Source: a virus. From it: a DNA stretch of 29,049 bases. The DNA lies in IMG/VR virus record IMGVR_UViG_3300011113_000748, positions 1 through 29,049 of that record; one strand, written 5' to 3'. Below the pieces are notes generated by a model, which worked only from the letters and a program-made list of their open reading frames with translations, was not told the DNA's origin and ran no database searches. Position 1 is the stretch's first letter. Every line of letters starts with the position of its first letter. The position numbers and the translations under genes are program-made. Positions 2-25,769 of the stretch are shown piece after piece.

Positions 2-286
2 AAAGATGATAAAAAATTGCTTAAAAAATTAAATAAGCATTTTAAAAACGCTATTGATTCTGGTCACGATATTGAATTGTCTGCAATTATGGCAATTATG
101 GCAAATGGATCTACGTTAAGTCCTGGGCAGCTAGATATAGCAGAAACATTTGACCCTGATTTCCCCGAACAAGATCCTCCCTTCATAAGGTCAATCATAG
201 GAATTCATTTGGGGACTAAGGCGCCAGGTCAGGCTACTCCTGATGGAGCCACAGGAGCTCCACCACCGCCTCCTCCAGGTCTATAA
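2..286 (+). CDS. C-terminal part of a phage protein of unknown function (5' end outside window)
   Basis: The reading frame is open from the first bases of the window and stops with TAA at 284-286, so the gene very likely begins upstream. A TTG at 17 is the first start-like codon but has no clear ribosome binding site. The visible 95 codons begin with a lysine-rich helix, continue through an Ala/Ile/Met stretch and end in a disordered Gly/Pro/Ala tail with six consecutive prolines. I do not recognise the family. The stop lies one base before the ATG of the superoxide dismutase gene, so the two are probably co-transcribed. Proline-rich tails also occur in the low-complexity proteins at 15755-18602, but I see no real sequence similarity to them. 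Confidence 0.6.
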   Translation, partial: KDDKKLLKKLNKHFKNAIDSGHDIELSAIMAIMANGSTLSPGQLDIAETFDPDFPEQDPPFIRSIIGIHLGTKAPGQATPDGATGAPPPPPPGL

Positions 287-287
287 A

Positions 288-920
288 ATGGAAAAGTATC
301 CATTTAGTTTACCAGAACTTAAGTATGAATACAGTTTTCTCGAGCCGGAAATATCTCGAGAGACTATGAAGTTGCACCATAGTAAGCATCACAAGTCTTA
401 TGTTGAAAAACTTAATGAATTTGTTAATGGTAACGATTTTTTAATGGAATTACCCATAGACCAATTAATAAGTAAAAAAACTTTAGATGAACTTGATGAT
501 GATTTAGCTCAAAAGATTAGAGACTTTGGTGGTGGTCACATGAACCATATCATGTACTTTAATATGTTTGAAGGCGGTCATAAAAAAGTAGGAAAAATGC
601 TAGAATCTCTTATTAAGAGAGACTTTGGAGATTTTAAAACTTTTGAAAAAGAGTTTAAGCAAAAATCTCAAGACCACTTTGGATCTGGATGGTGCTGGCT
701 TATTTTAAACAAACATGGTCTTAAAATAAAGACAACAACCAATCAAGACAGTCCATTAAATACAGAAGTATGCAAAGTCATCATGGGTGTAGATCTGTGG
801 GAGCACAGTTACTATGTTGATTTTAGAAATAGAAAAAAGGAATATATAGACAAAATTTGGGAAAAGATAAATTGGAGAGACCTAGATAACATAATTTTGG
901 AGGCAGAATATGTCAAATGA
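288..920 (+). CDS. sodA: Superoxide dismutase, Fe/Mn family, Mn-type residue pattern
   Basis: The product (210 aa) converts superoxide to hydrogen peroxide and oxygen; it should be cytoplasmic, as no signal peptide is seen. The length matches bacterial SodA/SodB. The four metal ligands are present: His30 (LHHSKHHKSYV), His87 (GGGHMNH), Asp169 and His173 (DLWEH). Tyr38 is the conserved active-site tyrosine. The outer-sphere glutamine is Q153 in NQDSPL, and the position that holds Gln in iron enzymes is glycine (GGGH); both follow the Mn-type pattern. I chose ATG 288 because the longer frame from 243 lies inside the upstream gene. The end overlaps the next start by 11 bases. Metal use is inferred from residues, and a cambialistic enzyme is possible. 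Confidence 0.95.
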   Translation: MEKYPFSLPELKYEYSFLEPEISRETMKLHHSKHHKSYVEKLNEFVNGNDFLMELPIDQLISKKTLDELDDDLAQKIRDFGGGHMNHIMYFNMFEGGHKKVGKMLESLIKRDFGDFKTFEKEFKQKSQDHFGSGWCWLILNKHGLKIKTTTNQDSPLNTEVCKVIMGVDLWEHSYYVDFRNRKKEYIDKIWEKINWRDLDNIILEAEYVK

Positions 921-1203
921 AGATGATGCACAAAACTGGTACTTAAGATCTTTGCAGAATATTGCTGACAGCATAGGTCAAGCAAGAATGACAAAATCTG
1001 CTTCTCTCAAAAAAGCTATATCTGAATCATTTGATGTTTCTATATCAACTGATCAAGCAAAAGATATGATGAAACTTATGTCTGAAAATTACAAATCAAA
1101 AGACAGAGTAAGTTACATGTCTTCTAAGCTTGTAGAAATTCTTAAGATAGAAGAATCAGATTGCAAAAAAATTGCATCGTTTTTATCTAACTTCAAGAAG
1201 TAA
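910..1203 (+). CDS. Small helical protein of unknown function
   Basis: A 97-residue hydrophilic, probably all-helical protein rich in Ser, Lys and Asp, with no membrane segment or recognised motif. A strong ribosome binding site (GGAGG at 899-903) lies six bases before the ATG, so it is a genuine gene even though it starts inside the end of the SOD gene. Its stop overlaps the end of the minus-strand gene 1193-2191 by 11 bases in a convergent arrangement with no room for an intrinsic terminator. A link to SOD function is suggested only by the overlap. Confidence 0.75.
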   Translation: MSNEDDAQNWYLRSLQNIADSIGQARMTKSASLKKAISESFDVSISTDQAKDMMKLMSENYKSKDRVSYMSSKLVEILKIEESDCKKIASFLSNFKK

Positions 1204-7790: not shown

Positions 7791-10340
7791 ATGACCAAAA
7801 TTGCACCAACTGTCTCAGAGACAGACATTGTAAGCGTTGTTAGTGAAATTAAGCAGGTAGTTTATACCTATGATGAGGCTATAGAAGCTAGCTCTAAATA
7901 TTTTAATGGAGATGAGCTTGCTGCTAAAGTGTTTGTAGACAAGTATGCCTTAAGAAATCAGAATCAGCAGATCGTTGAAAAAGATCCTGATGACATGCAC
8001 AGAAGAATTGCAAGAGAATTCGCAAGAATAGAAAAAAGCAAATTCAAGAATCCGCTAACTGAAGATTTTATATATGAAACTTTAAAGAACTTTAGTAGAA
8101 TTGTTGCTCAGGGGTCTCCAATGTATGGCATTGGCAATAAGCATCAATTTATATCTTTGAGCAACTGCTATGTTGTTGCCTCTCCCTTGGATGCTTACGG
8201 TTCAATCATGGAGGCTGATGAAAACTTAGTCCAAATTAGTAAGCGTCGCGGTGGTGTAGGAATTGACATATCTCATCTAAGACCTGCTGGAGCTCCAACA
8301 AAGAATGCAGCAAGAACAAGCACTGGCGTTGTCTCATTTGCAGAGCGTTATTCTAACTCTATTAGAGAAGTTGGGCAAGCAGGCCGTCGTGGTGCTCTCA
8401 TGATTACTCTTGACGTGCACCATCCAGACATCTTAGAGTTCGCAAAGGTTAAAAGAGATTTATCAAAAGTAACTGGAGCAAATATATCTATTCGTCTCAC
8501 AGATGAGTTTTTAAAGGCTGTTGACGCAGATCAAGATTATGAACAGCGTTGGCCAGTTGATTCAAAAAATCCATCTATTTCAAAGAAAATTAATGCAAGA
8601 TCTGTTTGGCAGGTAATTGTTGAAAATGCCCATCACATGGCTGAGCCTGGACTGCTTTTTTGGGACAACATAATTAATGAAAGTCCAGCAGACTGCTATG
8701 CGGAGCTTGGGTTTAAGACTATAAGTACAAATCCATGTTCTGAGATTCCACTATCGGCTTTTGATAGTTGCAGACTTATGTTATTAAATGCATTTGGCTA
8801 TGTTGAGAAGCCATTTACAAAACAAGCTACATTTAACTTTGATAAATTCAATGCTGATGCCGAAGTTTGTCAAAGACTAATGGATGATTTGGTAGACTTA
8901 GAAGTCGAGTGCATTGAAAGAATTCTTTCTAAGATCACAAGTGATCCCGAGAATAGCGAAGTTAAGGCAAGAGAAGTTAAGCTGTGGAATAATATTAAAA
9001 TTGCTGCTATTAATGGTCGCAGAACCGGTACAGGAGCGACTGCTATTGGAGATGCTCTAGCAGCACTGGGGCTTGCTTACACAAGTGAAAAAGGCATAGA
9101 AATGACAGAAAAGATTTACAAAAATCTTAAGCTTTCTGCCTATAGAAGCAGTGTAAATATGGCAAAAGAAATTGGAGCATTCCCAATATGGAATCCTGAT
9201 CTTGAAAAGAACAATCCATTCTTGAATAGAATTAAAGATGAAGATCCAAAGCTTTATCAAGATATGCAAAAGTATGGTCGTAGAAATATTGCGTTACTAA
9301 CTACTGCGCCAGCAGGATCAGTTTCCATACTAACCCAAACATCAAGCGGGATAGAGCCTCAATTTATGATTGAACCATATGTCCGTCGCAAGAAGGGCAA
9401 TCCTGGAGATAGTGGTTTTAGAAGTGACTTTGTAGATCAAAATGGTGATCACTGGATGGAATTTAAAGTTTATCCACCAAAGGTTAAAATGTGGATGGAG
9501 GTCACTGGAGAAAGCGATCTAAACAAGAGTCCATGGAAGGGCTCAACTGCTCCTGAACTTGACTGGAGAAAGCGCGTATATCTCCAATCTGCAGCGCAGA
9601 AGCATCTTGACCACGCAATATCAAGTACGCTGAACCTTCCAAATGATGTGTCTGTAGAGTCAGTGGATGAAATCTACAGAACTGCATGGAAGAGCGGATG
9701 TAAGGGCATTACAATCTATCGTGACGGTTGCAGAACGGGTGTTCTTGTGGCAGAAACAAAGAAGAAAGACAATAATGATGAGATCGTTATCACAAAAGCA
9801 CCAAAGCGACCAGAAACACTAGAGTGTGATGTTCATCACTGCTCTGTCAAGAATAGTCCATATTTCGTGATCGTAGGTAAACTAAAAGGGAAGCCATATG
9901 AAGTTTTTGCAAGTATGAATCATATTTCTGAAAATGAAGATGATATGCTTATTACCAAGAATTTCAATGATGGAACTTTGACAAAAGAAGCCAGAGGGCA
10001 CTATCGTGCAGATCTACAGGATAAGCACGGCAATAAGATGACAATAAAGAAAATTGGAGATAAGCTCTCTGAAGAAGAAGCTGGTCTTACCAGAATGATA
10101 TCAACTGCGCTAAGGCATGGAGCTGATGTTCAATTTATTGTTCATCAATTAGAAAAGGTTGAGGGATCTATGCATGGGTTTTCAAAGAGTGTATCTCGTG
10201 CTTTGAAAAAATATATTGCAGATGGTACAGAAGTTTCTGGTGAAACATGTGGAAATTGCAAGACTCAGGAAAAAGCAGCGCTCGTAAGGCAAGAAGGCTG
10301 CATAACCTGCAAGTCTTGTGGATGGTCAAAGTGCGGATAA
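7791..10340 (+). CDS. nrdJ: Adenosylcobalamin-dependent (class II) ribonucleotide reductase
   Basis: The enzyme reduces ribonucleotides to deoxyribonucleotides using a radical from adenosylcobalamin. In 849 aa the landmarks are Cys126 (SNCYVV) and Cys327 (DSCRLM) as the redox pair, and Asn314, Cys316 and Glu318 of NPCSEIPL as the active-site radical set. GRRTGTG and LLTTAPAGSVSIL are typical class II segments. After the barrel, residues about 665-790 look like the TSCPD domain found at NrdJ C-termini (KRPETLECDVHHC). Six cysteines follow (820, 823, 837, 840, 843, 848) in a zinc-ribbon or redox tail. AAGGAG precedes ATG 7791. dut follows after 12 bases. No cobalamin riboswitch fits in the 62-base upstream gap. 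Confidence 0.97.
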   Translation: MTKIAPTVSETDIVSVVSEIKQVVYTYDEAIEASSKYFNGDELAAKVFVDKYALRNQNQQIVEKDPDDMHRRIAREFARIEKSKFKNPLTEDFIYETLKNFSRIVAQGSPMYGIGNKHQFISLSNCYVVASPLDAYGSIMEADENLVQISKRRGGVGIDISHLRPAGAPTKNAARTSTGVVSFAERYSNSIREVGQAGRRGALMITLDVHHPDILEFAKVKRDLSKVTGANISIRLTDEFLKAVDADQDYEQRWPVDSKNPSISKKINARSVWQVIVENAHHMAEPGLLFWDNIINESPADCYAELGFKTISTNPCSEIPLSAFDSCRLMLLNAFGYVEKPFTKQATFNFDKFNADAEVCQRLMDDLVDLEVECIERILSKITSDPENSEVKAREVKLWNNIKIAAINGRRTGTGATAIGDALAALGLAYTSEKGIEMTEKIYKNLKLSAYRSSVNMAKEIGAFPIWNPDLEKNNPFLNRIKDEDPKLYQDMQKYGRRNIALLTTAPAGSVSILTQTSSGIEPQFMIEPYVRRKKGNPGDSGFRSDFVDQNGDHWMEFKVYPPKVKMWMEVTGESDLNKSPWKGSTAPELDWRKRVYLQSAAQKHLDHAISSTLNLPNDVSVESVDEIYRTAWKSGCKGITIYRDGCRTGVLVAETKKKDNNDEIVITKAPKRPETLECDVHHCSVKNSPYFVIVGKLKGKPYEVFASMNHISENEDDMLITKNFNDGTLTKEARGHYRADLQDKHGNKMTIKKIGDKLSEEEAGLTRMISTALRHGADVQFIVHQLEKVEGSMHGFSKSVSRALKKYIADGTEVSGETCGNCKTQEKAALVRQEGCITCKSCGWSKCG

Positions 10341-10352
10341 GAAAGGAACAAT

Positions 10353-10826
10353 ATGGAAATAAAGTTTCAAACACTTAATAGCGATGCTAGGTCATTAAAA
10401 AAAGCAAACCACAATGATTCTGGATGGGATCTTACTGCATCTTCTGAGCCTGTATTTGAAATTAGGACAATAGCAGGCAAGGACTATGTTGTAAATGTTA
10501 TATACGATACTGGTGTAAGAGTGGAGTTTCCAGAAGGATACTGCGGCTTTGTATATCCAAGATCTAGCATTAAAAAATATGACTTATTTTTATCAAATTC
10601 AGTCGGTGTTATAGATGAGGGATATAGAGGTTCAATTCAGGTTGCATTTAGACCTGTTGTAACAACTGAGGCAAAAGACGTAAACTCATTGAATCTTTAT
10701 AAGAAAGGTGATAGAATCGCTCAGCTCGTAATTACTAGAAGAGAAGATGTCCAAATGGTAGATGGTATTGTGGATACAAATACCGTCAGATCTACAGGAG
10801 GATTTGGATCTTCTGGAATTACATGA
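10353..10826 (+). CDS. dut: dUTP diphosphatase (trimeric dUTPase)
   Basis: The enzyme hydrolyses dUTP to dUMP and pyrophosphate, keeping uracil out of DNA and feeding ThyX. All five motifs of the trimeric family are present in 157 aa: I DSGWDL (22-27), II PRSS (69-72), III NSVGVIDEGYRG (82-93, with Asp88 and Tyr91), IV KGDRIAQLVI (118-127) and V RSTGGFGSSG (146-155). AAAGGA lies upstream of ATG 10353. The stop overlaps the start of the next gene (ATGA 10823-10826). The block around residues 34-50 is a small insertion before motif II. Confidence 0.96.
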   Translation: MEIKFQTLNSDARSLKKANHNDSGWDLTASSEPVFEIRTIAGKDYVVNVIYDTGVRVEFPEGYCGFVYPRSSIKKYDLFLSNSVGVIDEGYRGSIQVAFRPVVTTEAKDVNSLNLYKKGDRIAQLVITRREDVQMVDGIVDTNTVRSTGGFGSSGIT

Positions 10827-12649
10827 GTTTAAAATCCAACAACATAATTTATGTGTACAATTCTGGCGATGAAGACAGTGTAAAACTGGCTGAAGAGTTT
10901 GCCTATATGAGACAAGTACCGACCTCCAACATGTTGGGGGTCGATACTTTTACTACAAGTATACTTGAAAGTAGAGCGCAATTTGTAGATCAAATATTAA
11001 ATCCACTTAAAGAAAAAATCGAATCACTTGGTGGCTTTGGCGAATTGGTTCAAGGCTGTGTTTTAGGGTATAGAATACCTGCGGGTTATAATTCAGAATA
11101 TGGAGTTATATCATCATGTTCTGCAGTATCTGCGATGTTTTTGTCTGATGGTGTTCCAATTTATAATCCAGCTTATAGACAGAACACAAAAACATCTAAA
11201 ATGTATGATTTTAAAGTATTTCCAACTTGTCAGCAAGATATGCCAAACTTCAATCTAATGAAGAAAAAAATATCAGATTTTGCTCTTTTCAGAAATGGCA
11301 TTACAGTAGATGGGTCTTTCTATTTTGACAGATGGAGTTTAAAGGAAGATTTTGCATATGATGTATATGCTGCTGAATTACAAGATTTTGAAGAAAAGTT
11401 TATATCTAAATATGTTTCAAAATACTTTGTTACTTCAGAGCCAATAGATGACTTGAGGAGTGATTTTGGATTTGCCAATAATGATTCTTTCTTTTGGTCT
11501 GCAGGTTTGCAAAATTTAACGCAAAGCTATTTTAGAAACAACAACAGAGCAAATAGAGTTTTCTTTTTTAATGCAGATGAAGATTCTTTTGTAAGTTTTA
11601 GATCTAATAATGAATTTGGTCCAGCAATAGCAGCGCTTAATGCAGGATATGTGGGAGCTGCTGGAATGATGAGTGGATTTGAATCTACAATAGATATTAA
11701 TCCTTATTCTACAGATCCATATGAAATGCAGCAAGAAACGTCGGTATCGTGCTGGATTAGACCAGAGCCTTTTTTTCAAGCAATATCTCAAGGTATCACA
11801 CTGTTAGAGTCAATGTATTATGCATCGCCAATCCTATGTTGCCCTATGACATACTTTACTGACCCTATGATGACGGTGGATGTGACTGGTGCATTAGCCG
11901 TACCTGAAAAAATATCTACAAGCGACGGGTGGCTAGAGATACACTACAAGCTTAGTGAGGCTGGCGCTTTGATTAACAATAGATCAATAGCATCAAGTAG
12001 GCTTATTAGTAGAGTTGGAACTCACAATGGGCTTGACGATAAGTTGTGGGCAATAAAGAATTATGGATCGGCATTGACGGGCAATAGCATAACAACTTTA
12101 AGATCTTTAATAGATCCAGCTCTATCTGGTTGGAAAAAATATATTGAAGTTGCTTACTTTGATAAAATAACACAAACAATACCTAACTTTCTTAGATCTG
12201 TAAATGAAGTTGATTTTAAACTGACTAATGCATTTATTAATATAAATTTGAATAACGCACAGATATATGAAGAAATAGAATCAAGTAATATTGAAACAAA
12301 AGGAATGTTTATTATTGATACCTATTTACCGGAAAGAAATATTGGCACTGGATACTTTCAGGTAAAAGCAGAAGTATATGAAGATGTAGATGATGAAGAA
12401 CCATTAATAACATCATACTCATACAATGACACTTTAAATTGGAGCTTTGAAGACTTTGACAAGTCTATGAAGCCATATCCAGTGCAAGGAATTTTTAGTT
12501 CTTTAAAAAATAGAAAAATAAGATTTATAAACAGAAGATTTATACAGAATAAAAATATTGGAAATAAAGTATGGGTTGTATTTACATATATCCTGAATGA
12601 TTCTGCGGAAATAGTAAGTGACAGGAAAGAGGCGATGATAATATCATGA
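10823..12649 (+). CDS. TIGR03790-like protein with extra C-terminal beta domain
   Basis: A 608-aa protein. Residues 7-45 (NIIYVYNSGDEDSVKLAEEF, then RQVPTSNMLGV) match the start of TIGR03790-type proteins, where an N-x-(D/S)SxxLAxxYxxxRxIPxxNxL segment is the hallmark. Residues 72-115 hold the 'getVLxYGxP'-type strand (VLGYRIPAGY). Residues 264-350 hold the Gly-Ala-rich core (AALNAGYVGAAG) and the segment FFQAISQGITLLESMYYASP, which corresponds to the family's 'YAxGxTLAEAYW' region with a following GDP-like DPMM. The last 200 residues look beta-rich and are not recognised. The family's function is unknown. ATGA overlap with dut and with the next gene places it in the nucleotide operon. It lacks a signal peptide. 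Confidence 0.65.
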   Translation: MSLKSNNIIYVYNSGDEDSVKLAEEFAYMRQVPTSNMLGVDTFTTSILESRAQFVDQILNPLKEKIESLGGFGELVQGCVLGYRIPAGYNSEYGVISSCSAVSAMFLSDGVPIYNPAYRQNTKTSKMYDFKVFPTCQQDMPNFNLMKKKISDFALFRNGITVDGSFYFDRWSLKEDFAYDVYAAELQDFEEKFISKYVSKYFVTSEPIDDLRSDFGFANNDSFFWSAGLQNLTQSYFRNNNRANRVFFFNADEDSFVSFRSNNEFGPAIAALNAGYVGAAGMMSGFESTIDINPYSTDPYEMQQETSVSCWIRPEPFFQAISQGITLLESMYYASPILCCPMTYFTDPMMTVDVTGALAVPEKISTSDGWLEIHYKLSEAGALINNRSIASSRLISRVGTHNGLDDKLWAIKNYGSALTGNSITTLRSLIDPALSGWKKYIEVAYFDKITQTIPNFLRSVNEVDFKLTNAFININLNNAQIYEEIESSNIETKGMFIIDTYLPERNIGTGYFQVKAEVYEDVDDEEPLITSYSYNDTLNWSFEDFDKSMKPYPVQGIFSSLKNRKIRFINRRFIQNKNIGNKVWVVFTYILNDSAEIVSDRKEAMIIS

Positions 12650-16685: not shown

Positions 16686-17417
16686 TCAAATTTCGAATCT
16701 TTGCTTTAAAGCATCTGCTGTTCCTGTACCAGATGGCTTAGCTGCTGCTGCCGTTGGCGCTGGCTGTTGTGGAGGAGCAGATGGGGTTGGTGCAGGAGGA
16801 GGTTGTGTGGAGGTTGGAGCTTGAGGAAGTTGCTGGGTATTTGTTTTACCAGTGAGTGCCTCATAATTAATGGGCTCCTTTCCTGTTGCAATCAGCATAT
16901 CATTCATAAGTTCATCTTCTTCTAAAAGCTTCTTACCAGCTTCAAAAGCAGGACCAATTCCTCTTTCAGTAAGTCTTTGAGATATTGTTGCAATTCTTTC
17001 ACTTAATTTAGCATCAATATTTTTAAGATCATTATCGAGACGATCAGATATGCCACCAAGTCTTGATTTTACTTCTTGCTGGAATCTTGCTTGTGCATCT
17101 TGAAGAGCTTTTAGCATTTCTGGAGTTTCTGAACCACCAGACCACCAATCTTGTGCTGATTGCAATAAGTTAGATTTACTAAATATAGAAGCTAAAGCTC
17201 CAACTCCAGCGCCAGTTAATCCAGATCTTAGAGCAGAACCAAACAATGCGCTACCTGCTCTCCCAAGTGCTGGACCGACAGCTCTTCCAAGATTATAGGC
17301 TAACTGAGCTTCTTTATTGAGTGTGAATGTTCCATCAGCTTCAGCAGTAACGTATCCTTTTCTAATGCCTGAAGCAAGCCACTGTGTTTGAGATATTTTT
17401 ATCATTTCTTTTTTCAT
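16686..17417 (-). CDS. Member of a paralogous family with an MIKxS-WL N-terminal motif (copy 1)
   Basis: A 243-aa protein. Residues 5-24 (MIKISQTQWLASGIRKGYV) align with the N-termini of the genes at 17427-18602 and 18664-19392. Residues 43-79 are Gly/Ala-rich and hydrophobic (LGRAGSALFGSALRSGLTGA), like a glycine-zipper or amphipathic membrane-active helix. Residues 105-152 are a probable coiled coil starting GGISDRLDNDLKNI, matching the GISKxLDKxM motif of its paralogues. Residues 196-230 are a Pro/Ala/Thr-rich linker, followed by a short charged end (DALKQRFEI). Virion or ejection-related work is my inference; no known family is claimed. Confidence 0.72.
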   Translation of the reverse strand: MKKEMIKISQTQWLASGIRKGYVTAEADGTFTLNKEAQLAYNLGRAVGPALGRAGSALFGSALRSGLTGAGVGALASIFSKSNLLQSAQDWWSGGSETPEMLKALQDAQARFQQEVKSRLGGISDRLDNDLKNIDAKLSERIATISQRLTERGIGPAFEAGKKLLEEDELMNDMLIATGKEPINYEALTGKTNTQQLPQAPTSTQPPPAPTPSAPPQQPAPTAAAAKPSGTGTADALKQRFEI

Positions 17418-17426
17418 GTTAACCTC

Positions 17427-18602
17427 TTATTTTGGTAAATAATCTGGAGACTGTGGAGCAGAGGCTCCTGGTGCATATCTATTTCTTAAAGCTTCAGCTA
17501 TCTGATCTTGTTTTTTCATAGCTGGACCACGTGAAGTTGGTTGGGTTTGCTGTATTTGTCTTTGTAAATCAGCAATTGTAGCCATTGTATTTCTCATTTC
17601 CTTATCAAGCACTTTACTAATGCCTGCAATGGGCTGGAATACCATTTGTAGTGAAGCAATGCCTCGCTGGAAATCTTGAGGTCTGTAATCTTTCATTTGA
17701 TTATTACCTCTTGCTGCATCAAAAAGAGCATCAGCGCCATAATATCCGGCTAATCCACCACCAAGTGCTGCAGCACCACGGCCAAGCATTTGCCTACCAG
17801 TTAATGCTGGTGGAACTGGAGCTGGATTTGGTTGAACTGGAGCTGGATTTGGTGGAACTGGAGCTGGATTTGGTGGAACTGGAGCTGGATTTGGTGGAAC
17901 TGGAGCTGGATTTGGTGGAACTGGAGCTGTTCCACCGCCACCAGATGCACCACCACCGCCAGAAGTGCCGCCACCGCCGACTAAGCCAGCAGCAGCTCCC
18001 CCTTTGTATGGTACGGCGCTCTTAAATGCAGCTGCAAATTGTGCATTATCCATACCAGCACTCGCTGGATCAGTAACTTTTAAGTTACCCTTTCCTACCA
18101 TTTTTTCAAGGAGATTTTTGTCTTGATTGTATAACTGAATCATTTGAGAATTTCCAGTAGGGTCTGTTACTTTTAATAAAGATCTTTCCCCACCTGGAGT
18201 ACGTGCTGCAATAACGTCAAACTTGAAATTTTGTCTTTGATCTGCAGGAATAGCTTGTATCGCAGAAATGGCACTGTCTCCTTGGAATCTTACGGCTCCA
18301 AGTTGCTGCATTCTACCTTCTCTAAATTTATTCCATCGCTCTCTTAATTTTAATGCAGCTTCTGGATCTTGTGGATTTATTTTTGCTTGAGCGCGTCTTC
18401 CAGAGTCACTTTGTAGCCAATCGTCAAAAGACGGAAGTTGAGCAACAATAGAAGGGTCATATACAGTCCCCTGTGCTACTTTAATTACGCCATCACCTTC
18501 TGTGTAAAATAAGCCTTTATCTAGTCCAACCTGAAGCCACTCACGGGAGCTCATTTTAATCATGGGTTTAGACGAATTTGCTGTTTTAATAAAACGTGCC
18601 AT
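17427..18602 (-). CDS. Member of the MIKxS-WL paralogous family with a PVPPNPA repeat linker (copy 2)
   Basis: A 391-aa protein. The shared N-terminal motif is at residues 14-34 (MIKMSSREWLQVGLDKGLF), after a basic 13-residue leader. Residues 60-200 are a unique, mostly helical domain. Residues 200-225 are Gly/Ser-rich and 226-265 consist of tandem PAPVPPN heptads coded by 21-base DNA repeats. Residues 270-298 are a Gly/Ala-rich hydrophobic stretch (GRGAAALGGGLAGYYGADAL). Residues 325-350 (IAGISKVLDKEMRNTM) are shared with the gene at 18664-19392. The heptads probably act as a stiff spacer between two modules. Confidence 0.75.
   Translation of the reverse strand: MARFIKTANSSKPMIKMSSREWLQVGLDKGLFYTEGDGVIKVAQGTVYDPSIVAQLPSFDDWLQSDSGRRAQAKINPQDPEAALKLRERWNKFREGRMQQLGAVRFQGDSAISAIQAIPADQRQNFKFDVIAARTPGGERSLLKVTDPTGNSQMIQLYNQDKNLLEKMVGKGNLKVTDPASAGMDNAQFAAAFKSAVPYKGGAAAGLVGGGGTSGGGGASGGGGTAPVPPNPAPVPPNPAPVPPNPAPVPPNPAPVQPNPAPVPPALTGRQMLGRGAAALGGGLAGYYGADALFDAARGNNQMKDYRPQDFQRGIASLQMVFQPIAGISKVLDKEMRNTMATIADLQRQIQQTQPTSRGPAMKKQDQIAEALRNRYAPGASAPQSPDYLPK
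17809..17928. repeat. 21-base tandem repeat coding PAPVPPN heptads
   Basis: Five full units and a 15-base partial unit, each in plus-strand terms GGTGGAACTGGAGCTGGATT plus T, at 17809, 17830, 17851, 17872, 17893 and 17914. Unit two differs by one base (GGTTG). Read on the minus strand they code the Pro-rich heptads of the 391-aa protein. The near identity points to recent copy-number expansion, so the array could vary in length among relatives. Confidence 0.95.
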
Positions 18603-18663: not shown

Positions 18664-19392
18664 TTACTTATTTTTTGCTGCGTCTAACTGTCTAATTAAG
18701 TCTAAAACAGTTGTGACGCCTTCTGCCATATTCTTGTCAAGACTTTTAGATATTCCAGCTATATCTTTAGCAATCATAGTTAATTTAAGTGCGGCTCCTT
18801 TAAATTTAGGAATACTGCCTGCTTTTTGTTCTATTACTGATGGAGATGCAACATTAAATCCTTTTCTTTGGTTTATAGTTGCATCCGCTATCCAGTCAGC
18901 AAGAAGATATCCTCCAACCCCACCGGCACCAGTAGCAAGACCTCGACCAGCAACTGTTCTTGTCTTACTTGGACCCAGAATAGAACGGATTCTACTGGGT
19001 CTTGTTGTTGACTGAAGGGCTGTCACCTGTTCTGGAGATATAACTCCACTAGATCTTAAATATTCTCGCAATCTTGCTGGATCTGCAGCAATTGCGTTTA
19101 CAACTGCAGGATCAACATTTTGTTGCCTACTTTGCATAATGCGTGAAACAAGCATTTGTGCACCAATGCTCCCAGCAACAACACCAAAAACAGAATTACC
19201 GTCTGATTGCTCCGATTCTCTTGAACGTTCTGGAGACTCATTACGTCTTGACGCTTCACCTGGATTTATAATGCCTCCAGAAGCAGAAGGAAATGGCATA
19301 TTTGTAACATCAAAAGCAACTTTGCTTCGTGTTGAAACCCAGTTGTTTTCTATGCCTATTTTTAACCAATCTGCTGAAGACAGCTTAATCAT
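18664..19392 (-). CDS. Member of the MIKxS-WL paralogous family (copy 3)
   Basis: A 242-aa protein starting at ATG 19392, which overlaps the stop of the upstream gene (ATGA 19389-19392) and puts the shared motif MIKLSSADWLKIGIENNW at its exact N-terminus; the longer frame from 19431 is therefore less likely. Residues 35-65 are polar and disordered. Residues about 149-172 are Gly/Ala-rich and hydrophobic (GRGLATGAGGVGGYLLADW). Residues 211-235 (IAGISKSLDKNMAEGVTTVL) match the C-terminal motif of the 391-aa paralogue. The shared ends with different middles suggest proteins sent to the same place with different cargo domains. Confidence 0.75.
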   Translation of the reverse strand: MIKLSSADWLKIGIENNWVSTRSKVAFDVTNMPFPSASGGIINPGEASRRNESPERSRESEQSDGNSVFGVVAGSIGAQMLVSRIMQSRQQNVDPAVVNAIAADPARLREYLRSSGVISPEQVTALQSTTRPSRIRSILGPSKTRTVAGRGLATGAGGVGGYLLADWIADATINQRKGFNVASPSVIEQKAGSIPKFKGAALKLTMIAKDIAGISKSLDKNMAEGVTTVLDLIRQLDAAKNK

Positions 19393-19811: not shown

Positions 19812-20486
19812 TTATGATGCGGGGTATTGATTGGGGGTGTAATCTATCATTAAACTTACTGTTATATCGTAAAAATGTTTTCTCCAAGTGGCTGATGTTA
19901 TCCACTTATAACGGATATCTTCATTTTTCTTCTTTTCAGCAATAATGTCATTTACGTCTCTACCAGTTTCTTCACATTCCTTCATGAGCTCTGCAGTCAC
20001 TGGATGTGTTTGAACCCCTTGTGGGGCTTCCTTTTTCACGACAAGAACTCTGTCGTTCTCTGGTCGATTCGTAATATCAATATCGTACACCTTTATAGTA
20101 TTAAGAGGAAAAACGTCTTTGTTGTCTTCTCCAAAAACTAATTTTCTTACATTTGATCTAAATGCTTCATTGCACAAAGATGATAACTCATTTGACAAGC
20201 TTATTCTCCATTGTTCAAAAGTATCAATATCTTCTTTTGTTGGATCTTCAGCAATAGTAAGATAGTGAAGAACTTTTTTACATTCTACGAGATCATCCGA
20301 GTCGAACTGGAACTGAGTATTCCATGGTTTTGTTGATCGCATCTTTCCGTCTTTGATGTGAAAATCAACATTGACTGCATCTTGAGAAAAGTTTGGATTA
20401 GAAATTGCGTTAAAAATCTCTTTAGCAACAGATTGCTTAAGTAATTCCGAAAAAAACTCTTGTAGCTTAACTGGAGTGTTGTTCAT
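19812..20486 (-). CDS. Protein of unknown function, 224 aa
   Basis: A charged protein with mixed helix and strand and no recognised motif. The C-terminal part contains Trp/Tyr-rich sequence (RYKWITSATWRKHFYDITVS), a pattern typical of beta-sandwich virion proteins. Its ATG and that of the ATPase gene share the palindrome CATG at 20484-20487, so the two are divergent with no intergenic space, and its promoter must lie within the ATPase gene. It is ended by its own terminator (19736-19769). Function unknown. Confidence 0.72.
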   Translation of the reverse strand: MNNTPVKLQEFFSELLKQSVAKEIFNAISNPNFSQDAVNVDFHIKDGKMRSTKPWNTQFQFDSDDLVECKKVLHYLTIAEDPTKEDIDTFEQWRISLSNELSSLCNEAFRSNVRKLVFGEDNKDVFPLNTIKVYDIDITNRPENDRVLVVKKEAPQGVQTHPVTAELMKECEETGRDVNDIIAEKKKNEDIRYKWITSATWRKHFYDITVSLMIDYTPNQYPAS

Positions 20487-21369
20487 GTATTATCTCAAAA
20501 GTATTGATTTTACAAATTTTTGTGGTTACAAAAAATTGTCTTTAGATTTCTTCAAAGACAACAAGCCTTTGCCTCTTACTGTATTTTTCGGACCAAACGG
20601 AACTGGAAAAAGTACTGTATTGAGTGGAATAAGAATGTTGTCAAATCCATATCAGTTTTTTGGAAGAGAGAATGATATGTATTTTAGAAAAATGGTGTTT
20701 CACGAAGACTACGACCCCACATACTCTGGCTTTATTAAATCAGTCAGAGATCTTAACTTAACAGCTCACTTTATTGATACAGAAAATAAAACATATAAAG
20801 TTATTTTAGATCAAAACGGAATTATAGAATCAGAGTTACCAAGATATAATTCAGATCAAGAGGGATGGAGTGTTTTTACTGATGCAGATCATCCTATGAA
20901 TATGAACAAATTTCAAATTAGAAAAGAAGCTGCAGAAAAATTTCTTGAAATAGCTTCATACGTATACGGGTTACCATTATCTTTAGGAAAAGAAATAACA
21001 ACTTATGATCTTGAAGACAGTGCTACGTTTTATCAAGATTTAATCATTACAAAGAAAGAAGTTAAAGTACACTTCAAAAGAATGAGTGATGGAGAAAAGA
21101 AAATAGCAACTTTGCTCCGTCACATATGTAATGAATCAGTTTTAAATCCTAGTAATATATATCTCATTGATAACGCAGAGATGCATATTTATTTTAAGAG
21201 ACATCCAGGTTTAGTAAAAAGATTAATATCTTGTTTTCCTGACAAACAGTTCATAACTACTTCTCACAGTTCCAATTTTATTAATGCAGTAAAGTCACAT
21301 GTGGGAGAAGAAGCATTATTTGATTTAGAAAAAGTACACGGGTTCGACTCTGTTAGTTATGACATGTGA
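20485..21369 (+). CDS. ABC/SMC-type AAA ATPase (RecF/OLD-like), altered Walker B
   Basis: A 294-aa protein in the AAA_21-like class of RecF/SMC/OLD ATPases. Residues 1-35 hold the usual start (YYLKSIDFTNFCGYKKLSLD). Walker A is GPNGTGKST (36-44), the ABC signature is MSDGEKK (200-206), Walker B is IYLIDN (225-230) and the H-loop is TTSHS with His261. The family norm is hhhhDEPExHLH; here it reads IDNAEMHIY, so the catalytic glutamate after Asp229 is Asn230. I chose ATG 20485 over the GTG at 20476 because GGAG lies nine bases upstream of 20485. No nuclease domain follows. A role in DNA transactions or defence is possible but not shown. Confidence 0.87.
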   Translation: MYYLKSIDFTNFCGYKKLSLDFFKDNKPLPLTVFFGPNGTGKSTVLSGIRMLSNPYQFFGRENDMYFRKMVFHEDYDPTYSGFIKSVRDLNLTAHFIDTENKTYKVILDQNGIIESELPRYNSDQEGWSVFTDADHPMNMNKFQIRKEAAEKFLEIASYVYGLPLSLGKEITTYDLEDSATFYQDLIITKKEVKVHFKRMSDGEKKIATLLRHICNESVLNPSNIYLIDNAEMHIYFKRHPGLVKRLISCFPDKQFITTSHSSNFINAVKSHVGEEALFDLEKVHGFDSVSYDM

Positions 21370-22434: not shown

Positions 22435-24552
22435 ATGGCAGTTAAACCTTTAGGCTTTCCAAGCAATCCAACTGATGGTCAGCAGTATACATTCAATGGT
22501 AAAAAATGGATGTACAATTCTGACATTCCAGGATGGGAAGCTCTTCAGGTTACTGATGTTAAAACAATTAAGAAAGATACCACAAGTAGTCAAGTACTGT
22601 TTGGCAATGACGATACTATTGGAAGTTCGGCTTTTACATTAGGTGATAACATCACCATGAATGCTGTAACTAAAACAATATCAGTAGCTGATGGTGCTGG
22701 TAGTGGTCTTGATGCTGACTTTTTACACTCAGTAAGTGGAAGTCGATTCACTGAAAATTTGAAGTCAGGTATTTTGTATGGCGGATCACTTTCCGTTAAT
22801 ACATCTAATAATGCAAAGTTTGATGTTGCCGCTGGTTCAGGGATAATAGTGTCAACTACTGGAGGTGGATACGGATCAACTGCAAGTCCATCCACTACAA
22901 TTACTACAATTACTTGGTCTGCTCAGTCTTCAATAACAGTAAGCAATATAGGATCATATGACACTACTTGGATTTATGTTGATGAAGACGGAATTGTTCA
23001 ACAACAAAACGGTGCATTTACTGATGAAAATTATAAACAGTATATAATACTTGGAGCACTCGTTCATCCAAATAGGACAACGATAGCATTTGTTTCAAAT
23101 CTTCCTACCGTTGTATATAATACATTAAATCAGTATGATGAATTTATAAGAAAACTTGGTCCAGCAAAAATATCTGGTCACAGAATTTCTGCAAATGGTT
23201 CAAATCTTTTACTTGATAGAAGTTCTGGAGTTTCTTATATTATAGGCGGAAATTACGTTACAGATTCTTCTCATCCAAATGTTGTTAGTGATGCAGGGAC
23301 TACTGCTGCAACAATTTATAGAATGTATTCTGACGGTGCTGGTGGCTACACGACTGTGTCAAATGCAGCAATTGATCCAAATTCATATGATAATGATTCT
23401 GGAACTTTGCAATCTGTGAGTTCTTCAGAATGGACAATACAGAGAGTTTATTATTTTCCAAAGAAAACAAACACACTTGCGATATATTATGGAAAAGTAA
23501 AATACAATTCTCTTGCAGAGGCGCTATCTGGAGTTGCAAATGAAGTGTGGACTGAATCTAATAACACAAAAGACAAAACTATATTTTGCGCGTATCTTAT
23601 AGTTAAAGGAAACGCTTCTCAGCTAAACAACAGTTCAGATGCAAAAATAATTCAAGGAAGTATATTTAGAGAAATCGTTTCATCTGGTAGTGGTGGTGGC
23701 GGTGCCGTAGAGTACATATCAGATCTTCTTGATGTTCAAACTTCTGCTCCAGTTATTGGAGAAGCTCTTATTTGGAACGGTTCAAATTGGGTAAATCAGC
23801 GTGCTATAACTTATATATCAGAGCTTGATGATGTGCAAACATCGTCTCCTACAAATGGACAGTTTCTTGTATGGAACGGTTCTAATTGGACAAATCAATC
23901 TCTCACCGGAAAAATATCTTATGTATCATCTCCCACTGCTCCAAGTACTACTTTATACAACGCAGGAGATAGATGGTATAATACAACTACTGGTATTGAA
24001 TATACATTAATAGATGATGGCAGTGATCTTTTTTGGGTCAATATATATTTGAGTCCAAATGAAGACTACATTATGAGTGAACTCACTACTTTTATGAAGT
24101 ACGTCAGTTCTAGTTCTACTCCAAGCGTTGCTTCTTATAAGGCTGGAGACAAATGGTTTAATACTTCTACCGGTGTTGAATATACGCTTGTAGATGATGG
24201 TAGTGACAAGCAGTGGGTAAACTTAAATACAAATTTTATTGCACACGTTCATCCGATCTATGAGATTACTTTTCCAACATCAACAGTTGCTTCATCTACA
24301 TACTCCGTTCAAGATACAGATTATTATGTTGGAGTAAATTACGCTGGAATTGTGACTATAACACTTCCATCAGGATCTGCTGGTAAAATATTTGTAATCA
24401 AAGATGAATCTGGAAATGCAAGTTATTTAAATCGTTACATAAAAATACAAGGATCTGGTGGTCAATTAGTAGACGGAAGTGCGTATGCTATTCTTAATAT
24501 TAATTATGGATCTTTAACTTTGATTTATAGAAATGGCTGGAGAATCATATGA
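22435..24552 (+). CDS. Modular tail-fibre protein, 705 aa
   Basis: I start it at ATG 22435, six bases after GGAGA and just past the previous stop; the longer frame from 22381 overlaps that gene. Modules in order: an N-terminal FNGxxWMYN unit (about residues 1-40); a beta-rich body with Ser/Thr/Gly; two 'ISxLxDVQTSxPxxGxxLxW' units followed by NGSNW (about 425-490); two 'AGD(R/K)W(Y/F)NT' units followed by TLxDDGSD and FWV or QWV (about 505-600); and a C-terminal beta domain (DYYVGVNYAGIVTITLPSGS, then FVIKDESGNAS) of a kind common at fibre ends. The stop overlaps the next start (ATGA). It probably binds a host surface. Confidence 0.85.
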   Translation: MAVKPLGFPSNPTDGQQYTFNGKKWMYNSDIPGWEALQVTDVKTIKKDTTSSQVLFGNDDTIGSSAFTLGDNITMNAVTKTISVADGAGSGLDADFLHSVSGSRFTENLKSGILYGGSLSVNTSNNAKFDVAAGSGIIVSTTGGGYGSTASPSTTITTITWSAQSSITVSNIGSYDTTWIYVDEDGIVQQQNGAFTDENYKQYIILGALVHPNRTTIAFVSNLPTVVYNTLNQYDEFIRKLGPAKISGHRISANGSNLLLDRSSGVSYIIGGNYVTDSSHPNVVSDAGTTAATIYRMYSDGAGGYTTVSNAAIDPNSYDNDSGTLQSVSSSEWTIQRVYYFPKKTNTLAIYYGKVKYNSLAEALSGVANEVWTESNNTKDKTIFCAYLIVKGNASQLNNSSDAKIIQGSIFREIVSSGSGGGGAVEYISDLLDVQTSAPVIGEALIWNGSNWVNQRAITYISELDDVQTSSPTNGQFLVWNGSNWTNQSLTGKISYVSSPTAPSTTLYNAGDRWYNTTTGIEYTLIDDGSDLFWVNIYLSPNEDYIMSELTTFMKYVSSSSTPSVASYKAGDKWFNTSTGVEYTLVDDGSDKQWVNLNTNFIAHVHPIYEITFPTSTVASSTYSVQDTDYYVGVNYAGIVTITLPSGSAGKIFVIKDESGNASYLNRYIKIQGSGGQLVDGSAYAILNINYGSLTLIYRNGWRII

Positions 24553-25769
24553 GTTTTTTATTCAACAATAGAGTTAGTTTTAATGGAGATGCAGTTGATG
24601 GATTTGGTAGATTAAAAGTCAGCCAGCCTTTTACTTTATTCGATTCTCAACATCGTTATCAGCAAAATGATAAATGGAACACTTTTACTACTACTGGAGG
24701 TTCTACTTTATTTAAGTCAAATGAGAGTGCTTTAAATCTTATTGTCAATACAGTTTCAGGAGCAAAAGTTTATAGAGAAACAAACAGAGTTTTTCCTTAT
24801 CAGCCTGGTAAATCATTGCTTGTTCTTAGTACATTTGTTCTGGCGAGTGGTCAAACAAATTTGCGTCAAAGAGTTGGTTATTTTGGAACACAAAATGGTG
24901 TATATCTGGAACAATATAATGGAATAAATTATTTTGTTCTTAGAACTTATGTCAATGGCGCAGCTGACGACTCAACGTATAAGGTTGCTCAAGCTGACTG
25001 GAATGGTGATAAGTTTGATGGTAGCGGACCCAGTGGTAGAACTATAGATTTTACAAAAGCAAATATACTTTGGTATGATATTGAGTGGCTTGGGGTCGGT
25101 GATGTTCGTTGTGGATTTTACGTAGATGGCAGACCAGTAATAGCTCACACTTTTCATAATGACAATGAAAACACAACTACATATATGACTACTGCTTGTC
25201 TTCCACTTAGATTTGAAATTGAAAATTTAGGTCCTACGTCAGTTTCTTCTACTGCAAAACAAATCTGCAATAGTATAATGTCTGAGGGAGGATTTGAGGG
25301 TTTTGCTCGTCGTTACAATATAACTAAAAGTGGCTCTACATTTACAACTTTGACATCTGCCGGATATCAGTACCCTGTTATATCGCTAAGAATGAATTCT
25401 AGCAGGCTCGATTCTGTTGTTATTCCTTCTAATATAAGCGCTGTGCTTGATGAGCAAACTTCTAATAAGCCTGATGTGGTTCAATATAGAATATTATTAA
25501 ACGCAACAGTTTCTGGAGGCAGTTGGACAACTCACTATAATGGAAATGTTGATTATAATATAACTGCAAGTTCTGTCACTGGAGGAACCGATATTATTGG
25601 AGGTTATGTTAGTAGCAGTGGATCTTTAGATATTTCTCAAATTAATGATTTTAATTTTCAGCTTGGTAGAACTATGACAGGGGGAAGTGATACGTTTACT
25701 TTAACATTTACTGCAGTAAATGCTGATGCTAAAATTTTATCAGACATGTCTTGGTTTGAAATAATTTAA
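24549..25769 (+). CDS. Phage virion protein with a lectin-like fold, FGRLKVSQP type
   Basis: A 406-aa protein of a family I recognise from cyanophages and other large viruses. Its signature is seen in order: DGFGRLKVSQPFTLFDS, FPYQPGKSLLVLSTFVL, LRQRVGYFGTQNGVY, VAQADWNGDKFDGSGPSGRT, ILWYDIEWLGVGDVRCGFYV, VIAHTFHN, YMTTACLPLRFEIEN and SEGGF. The conserved core ends near residue 240, and the last 150 residues are less conserved beta sequence. GGAG lies six bases upstream and the start overlaps the fibre gene stop. The family is usually annotated as a structural protein; its exact position in the virion is not known to me. Confidence 0.85.
   Translation: MSFLFNNRVSFNGDAVDGFGRLKVSQPFTLFDSQHRYQQNDKWNTFTTTGGSTLFKSNESALNLIVNTVSGAKVYRETNRVFPYQPGKSLLVLSTFVLASGQTNLRQRVGYFGTQNGVYLEQYNGINYFVLRTYVNGAADDSTYKVAQADWNGDKFDGSGPSGRTIDFTKANILWYDIEWLGVGDVRCGFYVDGRPVIAHTFHNDNENTTTYMTTACLPLRFEIENLGPTSVSSTAKQICNSIMSEGGFEGFARRYNITKSGSTFTTLTSAGYQYPVISLRMNSSRLDSVVIPSNISAVLDEQTSNKPDVVQYRILLNATVSGGSWTTHYNGNVDYNITASSVTGGTDIIGGYVSSSGSLDISQINDFNFQLGRTMTGGSDTFTLTFTAVNADAKILSDMSWFEII

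Follow-up and report, generated by a model that had tools for sequence, protein, structure and literature searches.

A divergent Fe/Mn superoxide dismutase of a tailed-phage lineage, predicted to be active and manganese-preferring

A viral contig of 29,049 nucleotides (IMG/VR record IMGVR_UViG_3300011113_000748, positions 1 to 29,049; the whole stretch is called the window here) carries, directly behind a truncated first gene, a reading frame that resembles superoxide dismutase (SOD). This raises the question whether the phage possesses a working enzyme of its own, which metal that enzyme would use and how it is related to the SODs of cells. Judged from sequence, positions 288-920 quite probably encode a working tailed-phage Fe/Mn SOD, probably Mn-preferring, that would remove superoxide in the infected cell. 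The features on which this view is built are collected in Table 1. Scanning viral contigs with the SOD protein alone gave one relative, on the 60,251-base contig IMGVR_UViG_3300042478_002844 (the sister phage), whose SOD also has 210 aa and is 78% identical. When the ribonucleotide reductase was used to look for more members of the lineage, the sister was recovered together with two distant contigs (reductases 46% and 36% identical), and the lineage as seen here consists of two phages, window and sister.

The features that define the Fe/Mn SOD family (SodFM) were all found in the window protein, namely the two Pfam domains (Sod_Fe_C, E 1.1e-32; Sod_Fe_N, E 2.3e-22), each scoring above its gathering threshold, the metal ligands (three His, one Asp), and a predicted SOD fold. 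No PHROG family matched it at E 1e-3. A phmmer search against solved structures returned 151 distinct sequences at E ≤1e-20, the best at 9e-52. The AlphaFold2 model, calculated from an alignment of 49 sequences, reached a mean pLDDT of 92.2, and its best Foldseek match was the B. subtilis SOD 2rcv (TM 0.91/0.95, 39% identity). The mechanical list of reading frames opens this one at 243; a start at 288 is preferred because the upstream gene stops at 286 and because the sister SOD, with the same N-terminus, has the same length. The protein then begins with MEKYPFSLP, directly at the SOD fold, and the sister SOD does likewise.

In the alignment, H30, H87, D169, H173 and Gln153 fall in columns that we take to be those of H26, H81, D167, H171 and Q146 of E. 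coli SodA. The gateway residues H34 and Y38 as well as Gln153, Glu172 and Tyr176, to which we assign the roles presumed from E. coli SOD, are all kept in the window SOD, and the ligands, the gateway residues and Gln153 are intact in the sister SOD too. With the exception of the Trp85 column, all ligands and all second-sphere residues that were checked are kept in both phage proteins. The original prediction of an SOD with four metal ligands and an Mn-type Gln153 is thus borne out by the alignment, both Pfam domains and the model. Its further statement that the gene is probably functional is well supported by the sequence, through the intact active site and the purifying selection described below.

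The one departure lies in the usual Phe84-Trp85 pair, which is Tyr90-Phe91 in the window SOD, so that a near-invariant Trp of the active-site shell is replaced by Phe. Phe occupies this column in the window and sister SODs, in 5 of the 79 other viral rows (L024, L060, L076, L078, L082) and in the phage records L004, L005 and L014 (not in L003), and in none of the 85 rows of the cellular group, which takes in four plasmid records and one Listeria-labelled phage record. Either common ancestry or convergence may lie behind this distribution among phage SODs. The change could affect turnover of the window enzyme.

Table 1. Positions of the features discussed (window coordinates unless a locus label is given)
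Feature	Position	Strand	Remark
Upstream gene, truncated by the window start	2..286	+	151 aa in the sister phage
Fe/Mn superoxide dismutase gene, SodFM1-like, predicted Mn-preferring	288..920	+	210 aa
Metal ligand H30 codon	375..377	+	
Metal ligand H87 codon	546..548	+	
Tyr90-Phe91 codons, replacing the usual Phe84-Trp85	555..560	+	alignment
Gln153 codon, C-terminal water-coordinating Gln	744..746	+	alignment; rule from a passage of PMC10172142
Gly167 codon, XD-2 metal-preference position	786..788	+	alignment; rule from a passage of PMC10172142
Metal ligand D169 codon	792..794	+	
Metal ligand H173 codon	804..806	+	
GGAGG, probable ribosome-binding site of the 97-aa gene, within the end of the SOD coding region	899..903	+	kept in the sister
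97-aa gene, no family match	910..1203	+	11-base overlap with SOD (910-920)
NrdJ-type B12-dependent ribonucleotide reductase	7791..10340	+	TIGR02504, 460.5 bits (cut-off 399.95)
Virion structural protein	24549..25769	+	phrog_1645, E 1.8e-106
SODs with T4-like capsid-targeting leaders	L060:5733-6311; L078:10001-10588		MIKMSDILLE; MKLSKLILE

In both phage SODs the C-terminal position holds Gln, and Gly lies two residues ahead of the Asp ligand. A passage of PMC10172142 reports that 21 of 27 tested enzymes with a C-terminal Gln preferred Mn and 6 did not, and that Gly or Ala at XD-2 accompanies Mn preference, with exceptions. Under this rule the combination of Q153 with the small XD-2 residue G167 makes Mn preference of the window SOD a good prediction, and as a prediction the earlier Mn-type call stands. 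The E. coli-type SodA equivalog (NCBIfam PRK10925) gave the protein 166.7 bits, below its cut-off of 363. It is rather unlikely that the enzyme is instead cambialistic or Fe-preferring: such signatures name the correct metal in 21 of 27 cases according to that passage, XD-1 is Val in the window and Leu in the sister, and Trp85 has become Phe, but the two phage proteins agree in having both the C-terminal Gln and the Gly at XD-2.

Mn preference being the favored reading, a second question is where in the infection cycle the protein acts, and here the SODs of other phages have to be considered. Among the 79 other viral SOD loci, a long C-terminal extension is seen in 58 and a long N-terminal one in 7, while 8 encode SOD alone and 6 lie at a contig end. 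The C-terminal fusions comprise 48 distinct sequences, or about 25 clusters at 90% identity; in these 58 the SOD is followed by a C-terminal domain of ~270 aa, and one such fusion gene (L032:9902-11443) adjoins a head-tail adaptor gene. Modelled alone from 25 rows, the C-terminal domain reached a pLDDT of 91.0, and its last part resembles PD-(D/E)XK nucleases. Its best VIA-align match was archaeal Hjc (102 residues, rmsd 3.4) with a Z of 9.1, modestly above the level that unmatched models reach, and Foldseek against the PDB gave nothing at E ≤0.001. The domain is matched at E 2.6e-26 by A0A6J5L953, a viral UniProt entry of 501 aa named superoxide dismutase; SOD fusions of this type are therefore already in databases.

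The 25 fusions that were aligned, a choice from the 58, all have the motif (L/I/V)xE before the SOD domain and (I/L/M)xE after it. A looser pattern recovered the first site in 56 of the 58 fusions (L023 and L059 lacking it) and the second in all 58; the latter pattern is short enough for chance hits. Among the unfused SODs, that of L060 starts MIKMSDILLEAKG and that of L078 MKLSKLILENK, and L076 and L082 have two such leader-like segments each. Internal proteins of T4 are described in a section of PMC9026906 as bearing capsid-targeting propeptides of 10-19 residues that gp21 removes, and the proteases of T4 and giant phages cleave after Glu according to a passage of PMC5694885. Four of 14 phage records, the L060 record included, contain a Peptidase_S77 prohead protease, and the same four contain a Gp23 capsid protein; neither family was found in the other 10 of the 14, the sister among them, and these records may be fragments. 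Prohead-protease-like sites flanking SOD suggest head packaging in T4-like phages, and for these phages packaging is a reasonable hypothesis.

The window SOD might likewise be packed in the virion, enter with the DNA, and act early or guard the packaged genome. The xE sites around SOD in other phage lineages, the short T4-like leaders of L060 and L078 and the four records with a T4-type prohead protease and gp23 would be in line with this. However, no T4-type leader ending in (L/I)xE precedes the fold in the window SOD, the sister SOD has no leader either, and neither T4-type family was found on the 60-kb sister contig (a fragment), so that for the window SOD such packing is quite unlikely. 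The wider proposition, in which several virus-specific SOD branches are carried in the particle and delivered with the DNA, the window SOD being an independent lineage without a T4-type leader, appears improbable to us. If it were true, a delivered SOD would give the infected cell a superoxide defence ahead of phage gene expression. The preferred reading remains an SOD that acts within the infected cell.

How far this enzyme stands from other SODs was seen in database searches. SOD matches were found in 28 of 50,697 named phage records; annotated neighbourhoods were inspected for three of them (H10, H14, H20) and two unannotated ones were fetched. Several of these hits look like bacterial DNA by name; in H10 (MW462191) the neighbouring genes appear bacterial, and the Gln of its SOD is in the N-terminal position. 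In IMG/VR, a scan with a six-row SodFM1 alignment gave at least 599 stretches, 582 of which encode a relative (hence at least 582 loci), phage hallmarks having been checked for part of the loci only; among the best 80 of these relatives none but the sister exceeds 42% identity to the window SOD. The earlier remark that SOD is uncommon in tailed phages consequently applies to named records and fails for uncultivated ones. The matching scan of genomes gave at least 589 relatives (589 of 589 stretches), the best 80 of which have identities of up to 44% (45% for the same match in a second comparison). In the phylum of the genome that holds a locus titled uncultured Pirellula, 206 of 294 genomes had a match, the best at 45%. 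Among the matches listed and the genomes sampled, the closest cellular SOD is about 45% identical.

Trees were built from 170 rows (FastTree), from 73 chosen rows, and from 63 of those 73 after removal of L004, L005 and L024 (long branches), L082 (identical) and L019, L028, L043, L084, L090 and L092 (thinned); the bootstrap of the 63-row tree had not settled (correlation 0.948). In this last tree the window and sister SODs are joined at 100/100, their branch measuring about 2.06 changes per column; 12 rows, most of them fused phage SODs, group together at 100/100 on a branch of 1.23, and L060, L076 and L078 make up a three-row group at 100/100 on a branch of 1.16. The nearest row to the window SOD besides the sister varied with the tree (L024, L185, L112, L184), and only the pair was always firm. 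The cellular rows together with L024 and L049 were grouped at SH-aLRT 91 in the 73-row tree, a grouping that the 63-row tree did not resolve. The order among the three phage groups and the cells has no firm support in the trees, and long-branch effects are likely. The window SOD sits on a long branch whose place relative to the SodFM1 clade shifts between trees, the sequences of the published tree not being among the rows. The phylogenetic check proposed at the outset thus shows the gene in a phage clade of its own, well removed from all cellular SODs sampled, its exact place varying with the tree. A distinct clade, a long branch and no near cellular match among those sampled together make the gene look old in phages. 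The window SOD has the look of a viral version long separated from cellular SODs, a recent acquisition from a host being unlikely; the donor may belong to bacteria outside the sample.

The genes around SOD are closely packed. A single base separates the stop of the upstream gene from the SOD start, and the end of SOD overlaps the 97-aa gene by 11 bases, an overlap that had been noted from the sequence. Upstream of the SOD start there is a weak AGG at best, and the 97-aa gene has a GGAGG in both phages. The last eight SOD residues (I + LEAEYVK) are identical in window and sister; since their codons hold this GGAGG and the next start codon, the conservation may be explained without a role in the protein. 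Joint translation of the clustered genes is probable. The upstream gene, SOD and the 97-aa gene presumably share a transcript. In positions 1-2400 promoter-like sites were no more frequent than by chance (11 against 11.3 expected), and terminator-like sites numbered 0 against 1.1 expected.

Between window and sister the 97-aa protein shows 84% identity. It had no match among Pfam, PHROG and NCBIfam-type profiles, none in named phage records at E 1, and in a scan of viral contigs only the sister phage was found. A two-sequence HMM likewise matched nothing at E 10 in 26,319 ORFs of 184 other loci, which include the 79 other viral SOD loci. The neighbour therefore appears specific to this phage lineage. 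The idea that it forms a functional pair with SOD is weakened by this co-occurrence check, and a general role as SOD partner was rejected for the loci searched.

The same order of genes, namely the upstream gene, SOD, the 97-, 332-, 421- and 145-aa genes, ThyX, a sigma-like gene, HNH, a 212-aa gene and NrdJ, was found in window and sister. The dN/dS of SOD between the two is about 0.083. Of the 11 genes compared, eight others gave finite values between 0.032 and 0.175 and two had saturated dS; as the pS of SOD is 0.68 and its dS is near saturation, the values are rough, and they still show purifying selection. This selection, and the ligands and checked second-sphere residues that both phages keep apart from the one Trp, speak against a protein that retains the fold with its activity lost or changed, for example into a structural protein; despite the long branch in the tree and the Trp-to-Phe change, we consider such a loss highly unlikely. 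Bacterial contamination or a chimera, at which the position of SOD at the window's end and the bacterial resemblance (in name or neighbours) of several SOD matches in named phage records might hint, is extremely improbable and was rejected, given the gene order shared with another, diverged phage contig, the virion structural gene in the window and the best cellular SOD match at only about 45% in the sampled searches, the last making a recent host loan unlikely as well. A working SOD encoded by the phage itself, as originally predicted, is retained as the probable reading.

Some further genes of the two phages deserve mention. Among named phage records, NrdJ comes closest (46-47% identity) to a record of 25 kb and to unannotated records of huge uncultured phages, 635 and 462 kb long. 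The product of 22381-24552 matches a tail-fibre family; its sister counterpart (L009:1-3504, minus strand) contains long collagen-like Gly-x-x repeats, which are absent from the window protein. An AAA ATPase (20476-21369, plus strand) weakly matches the anti-phage effector ATPase PtuA (63.6 bits, cut-off 500), and a 608-aa protein (10823-12649, plus strand) has a sub-threshold TIGR03790 match (45.6 bits, cut-off 67) and had no counterpart among named phage records (E 0.01). Several otherwise different proteins, of the window (16686-17417, 17427-18602, 18664-19392, minus strand) and of L001 (1906-3180, 3199-3750), share a KMSSxEWLxxGxxxGW-like N-terminal motif, which may be a common targeting signal. 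Six sister proteins (L001:9543-9998 and five ORFs of L011), one of them encoded directly upstream of SOD, begin with M-x-WYK or MNWLK.

As to the host, a planctomycete is a guess from weak hints. In the region of L011:8588-10009 (minus strand) and L011:5351-6783 the sister encodes a subtilase with a weak dockerin-like end and two proteins with PEP-CTERM-like tails recognized by eye, the tails having no family match. At 52% identity over 328 aa, the subtilase matches one genome of the Pirellula-locus phylum, but all 8 genomes searched gave some match, and two of these belong to another phylum. Its GC-type dockerin match scores 20.9 bits, below the 29-bit cut-off. Of 119 genomes in the Pirellula-locus phylum, 6 gave a match to this dockerin family (3 over the cut-off); of 118 in the phylum to which a locus titled Prolixibacteraceae belongs, 3 did (1 over the cut-off), so that the family is not exclusive to the former.

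The following course of events is likely from what is known of the family. SOD, lying in a tight cluster, would be translated together with its neighbouring genes; the protein would most likely form the usual dimer and clear superoxide in the infected cell by Mn3+/Mn2+ cycling, which may keep host and phage enzymes active until lysis. The B12 or radical enzymes named earlier as beneficiaries are candidates only, and the window does encode such a B12-dependent reductase, NrdJ. The distinct branches suggest that some phages kept a superoxide defence long enough to have enzyme lineages of their own, instead of borrowing it occasionally from hosts. If the T4-like SODs are truly packaged, oxidative stress at the onset of infection would become a directly testable part of phage biology.

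SODs in freshwater phages and the idea of a defence against ROS were already published in 2019, as a part of PMC6802176 states, and a section of PMC12542629 (2025) lists an Fe/Mn SOD among the genes of bloom viruses; the likeness of these phage-borne SODs, with their proposed anti-ROS role, to the window SOD is one of description only. The SOD treated in the relevant passages of PMC9875498, PMC10284932 and PMC4908380 is cellular or animal, and among the open-licence PMC papers listed none bears the title of a dedicated study on a phage SOD enzyme. Among phages, the Fe/Mn SODs of the Pseudomonas jumbo phages Callisto, PA5oct and MIJ3 and of Vibrio phage 2.275.O are 24.7-29.7% identical to the window SOD; those of Callisto and 2.275.O share the Phe at the Trp85 column, whereas the gene neighbours in these phages differ from those in the window. 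The SOD domain fused to a PD-(D/E)XK-like part in T4-like uncultivated phages is of the SodFM1 type, as in the window, but these proteins differ in the extra domain, in the flanking xE sites and in their separate 100/100 clade. With the SodFM1 MnSODs of B. subtilis (2rcv) and E. coli (SodA) the window SOD has in common the ligands, the C-terminal Gln, the Gly at XD-2 and, as modelled, the fold, and it is set apart by an identity of about 39% to 2rcv and by Tyr90-Phe91 in place of Phe-Trp. The window SOD is therefore a divergent addition to a known enzyme family, of which lake-virus members are already in print.
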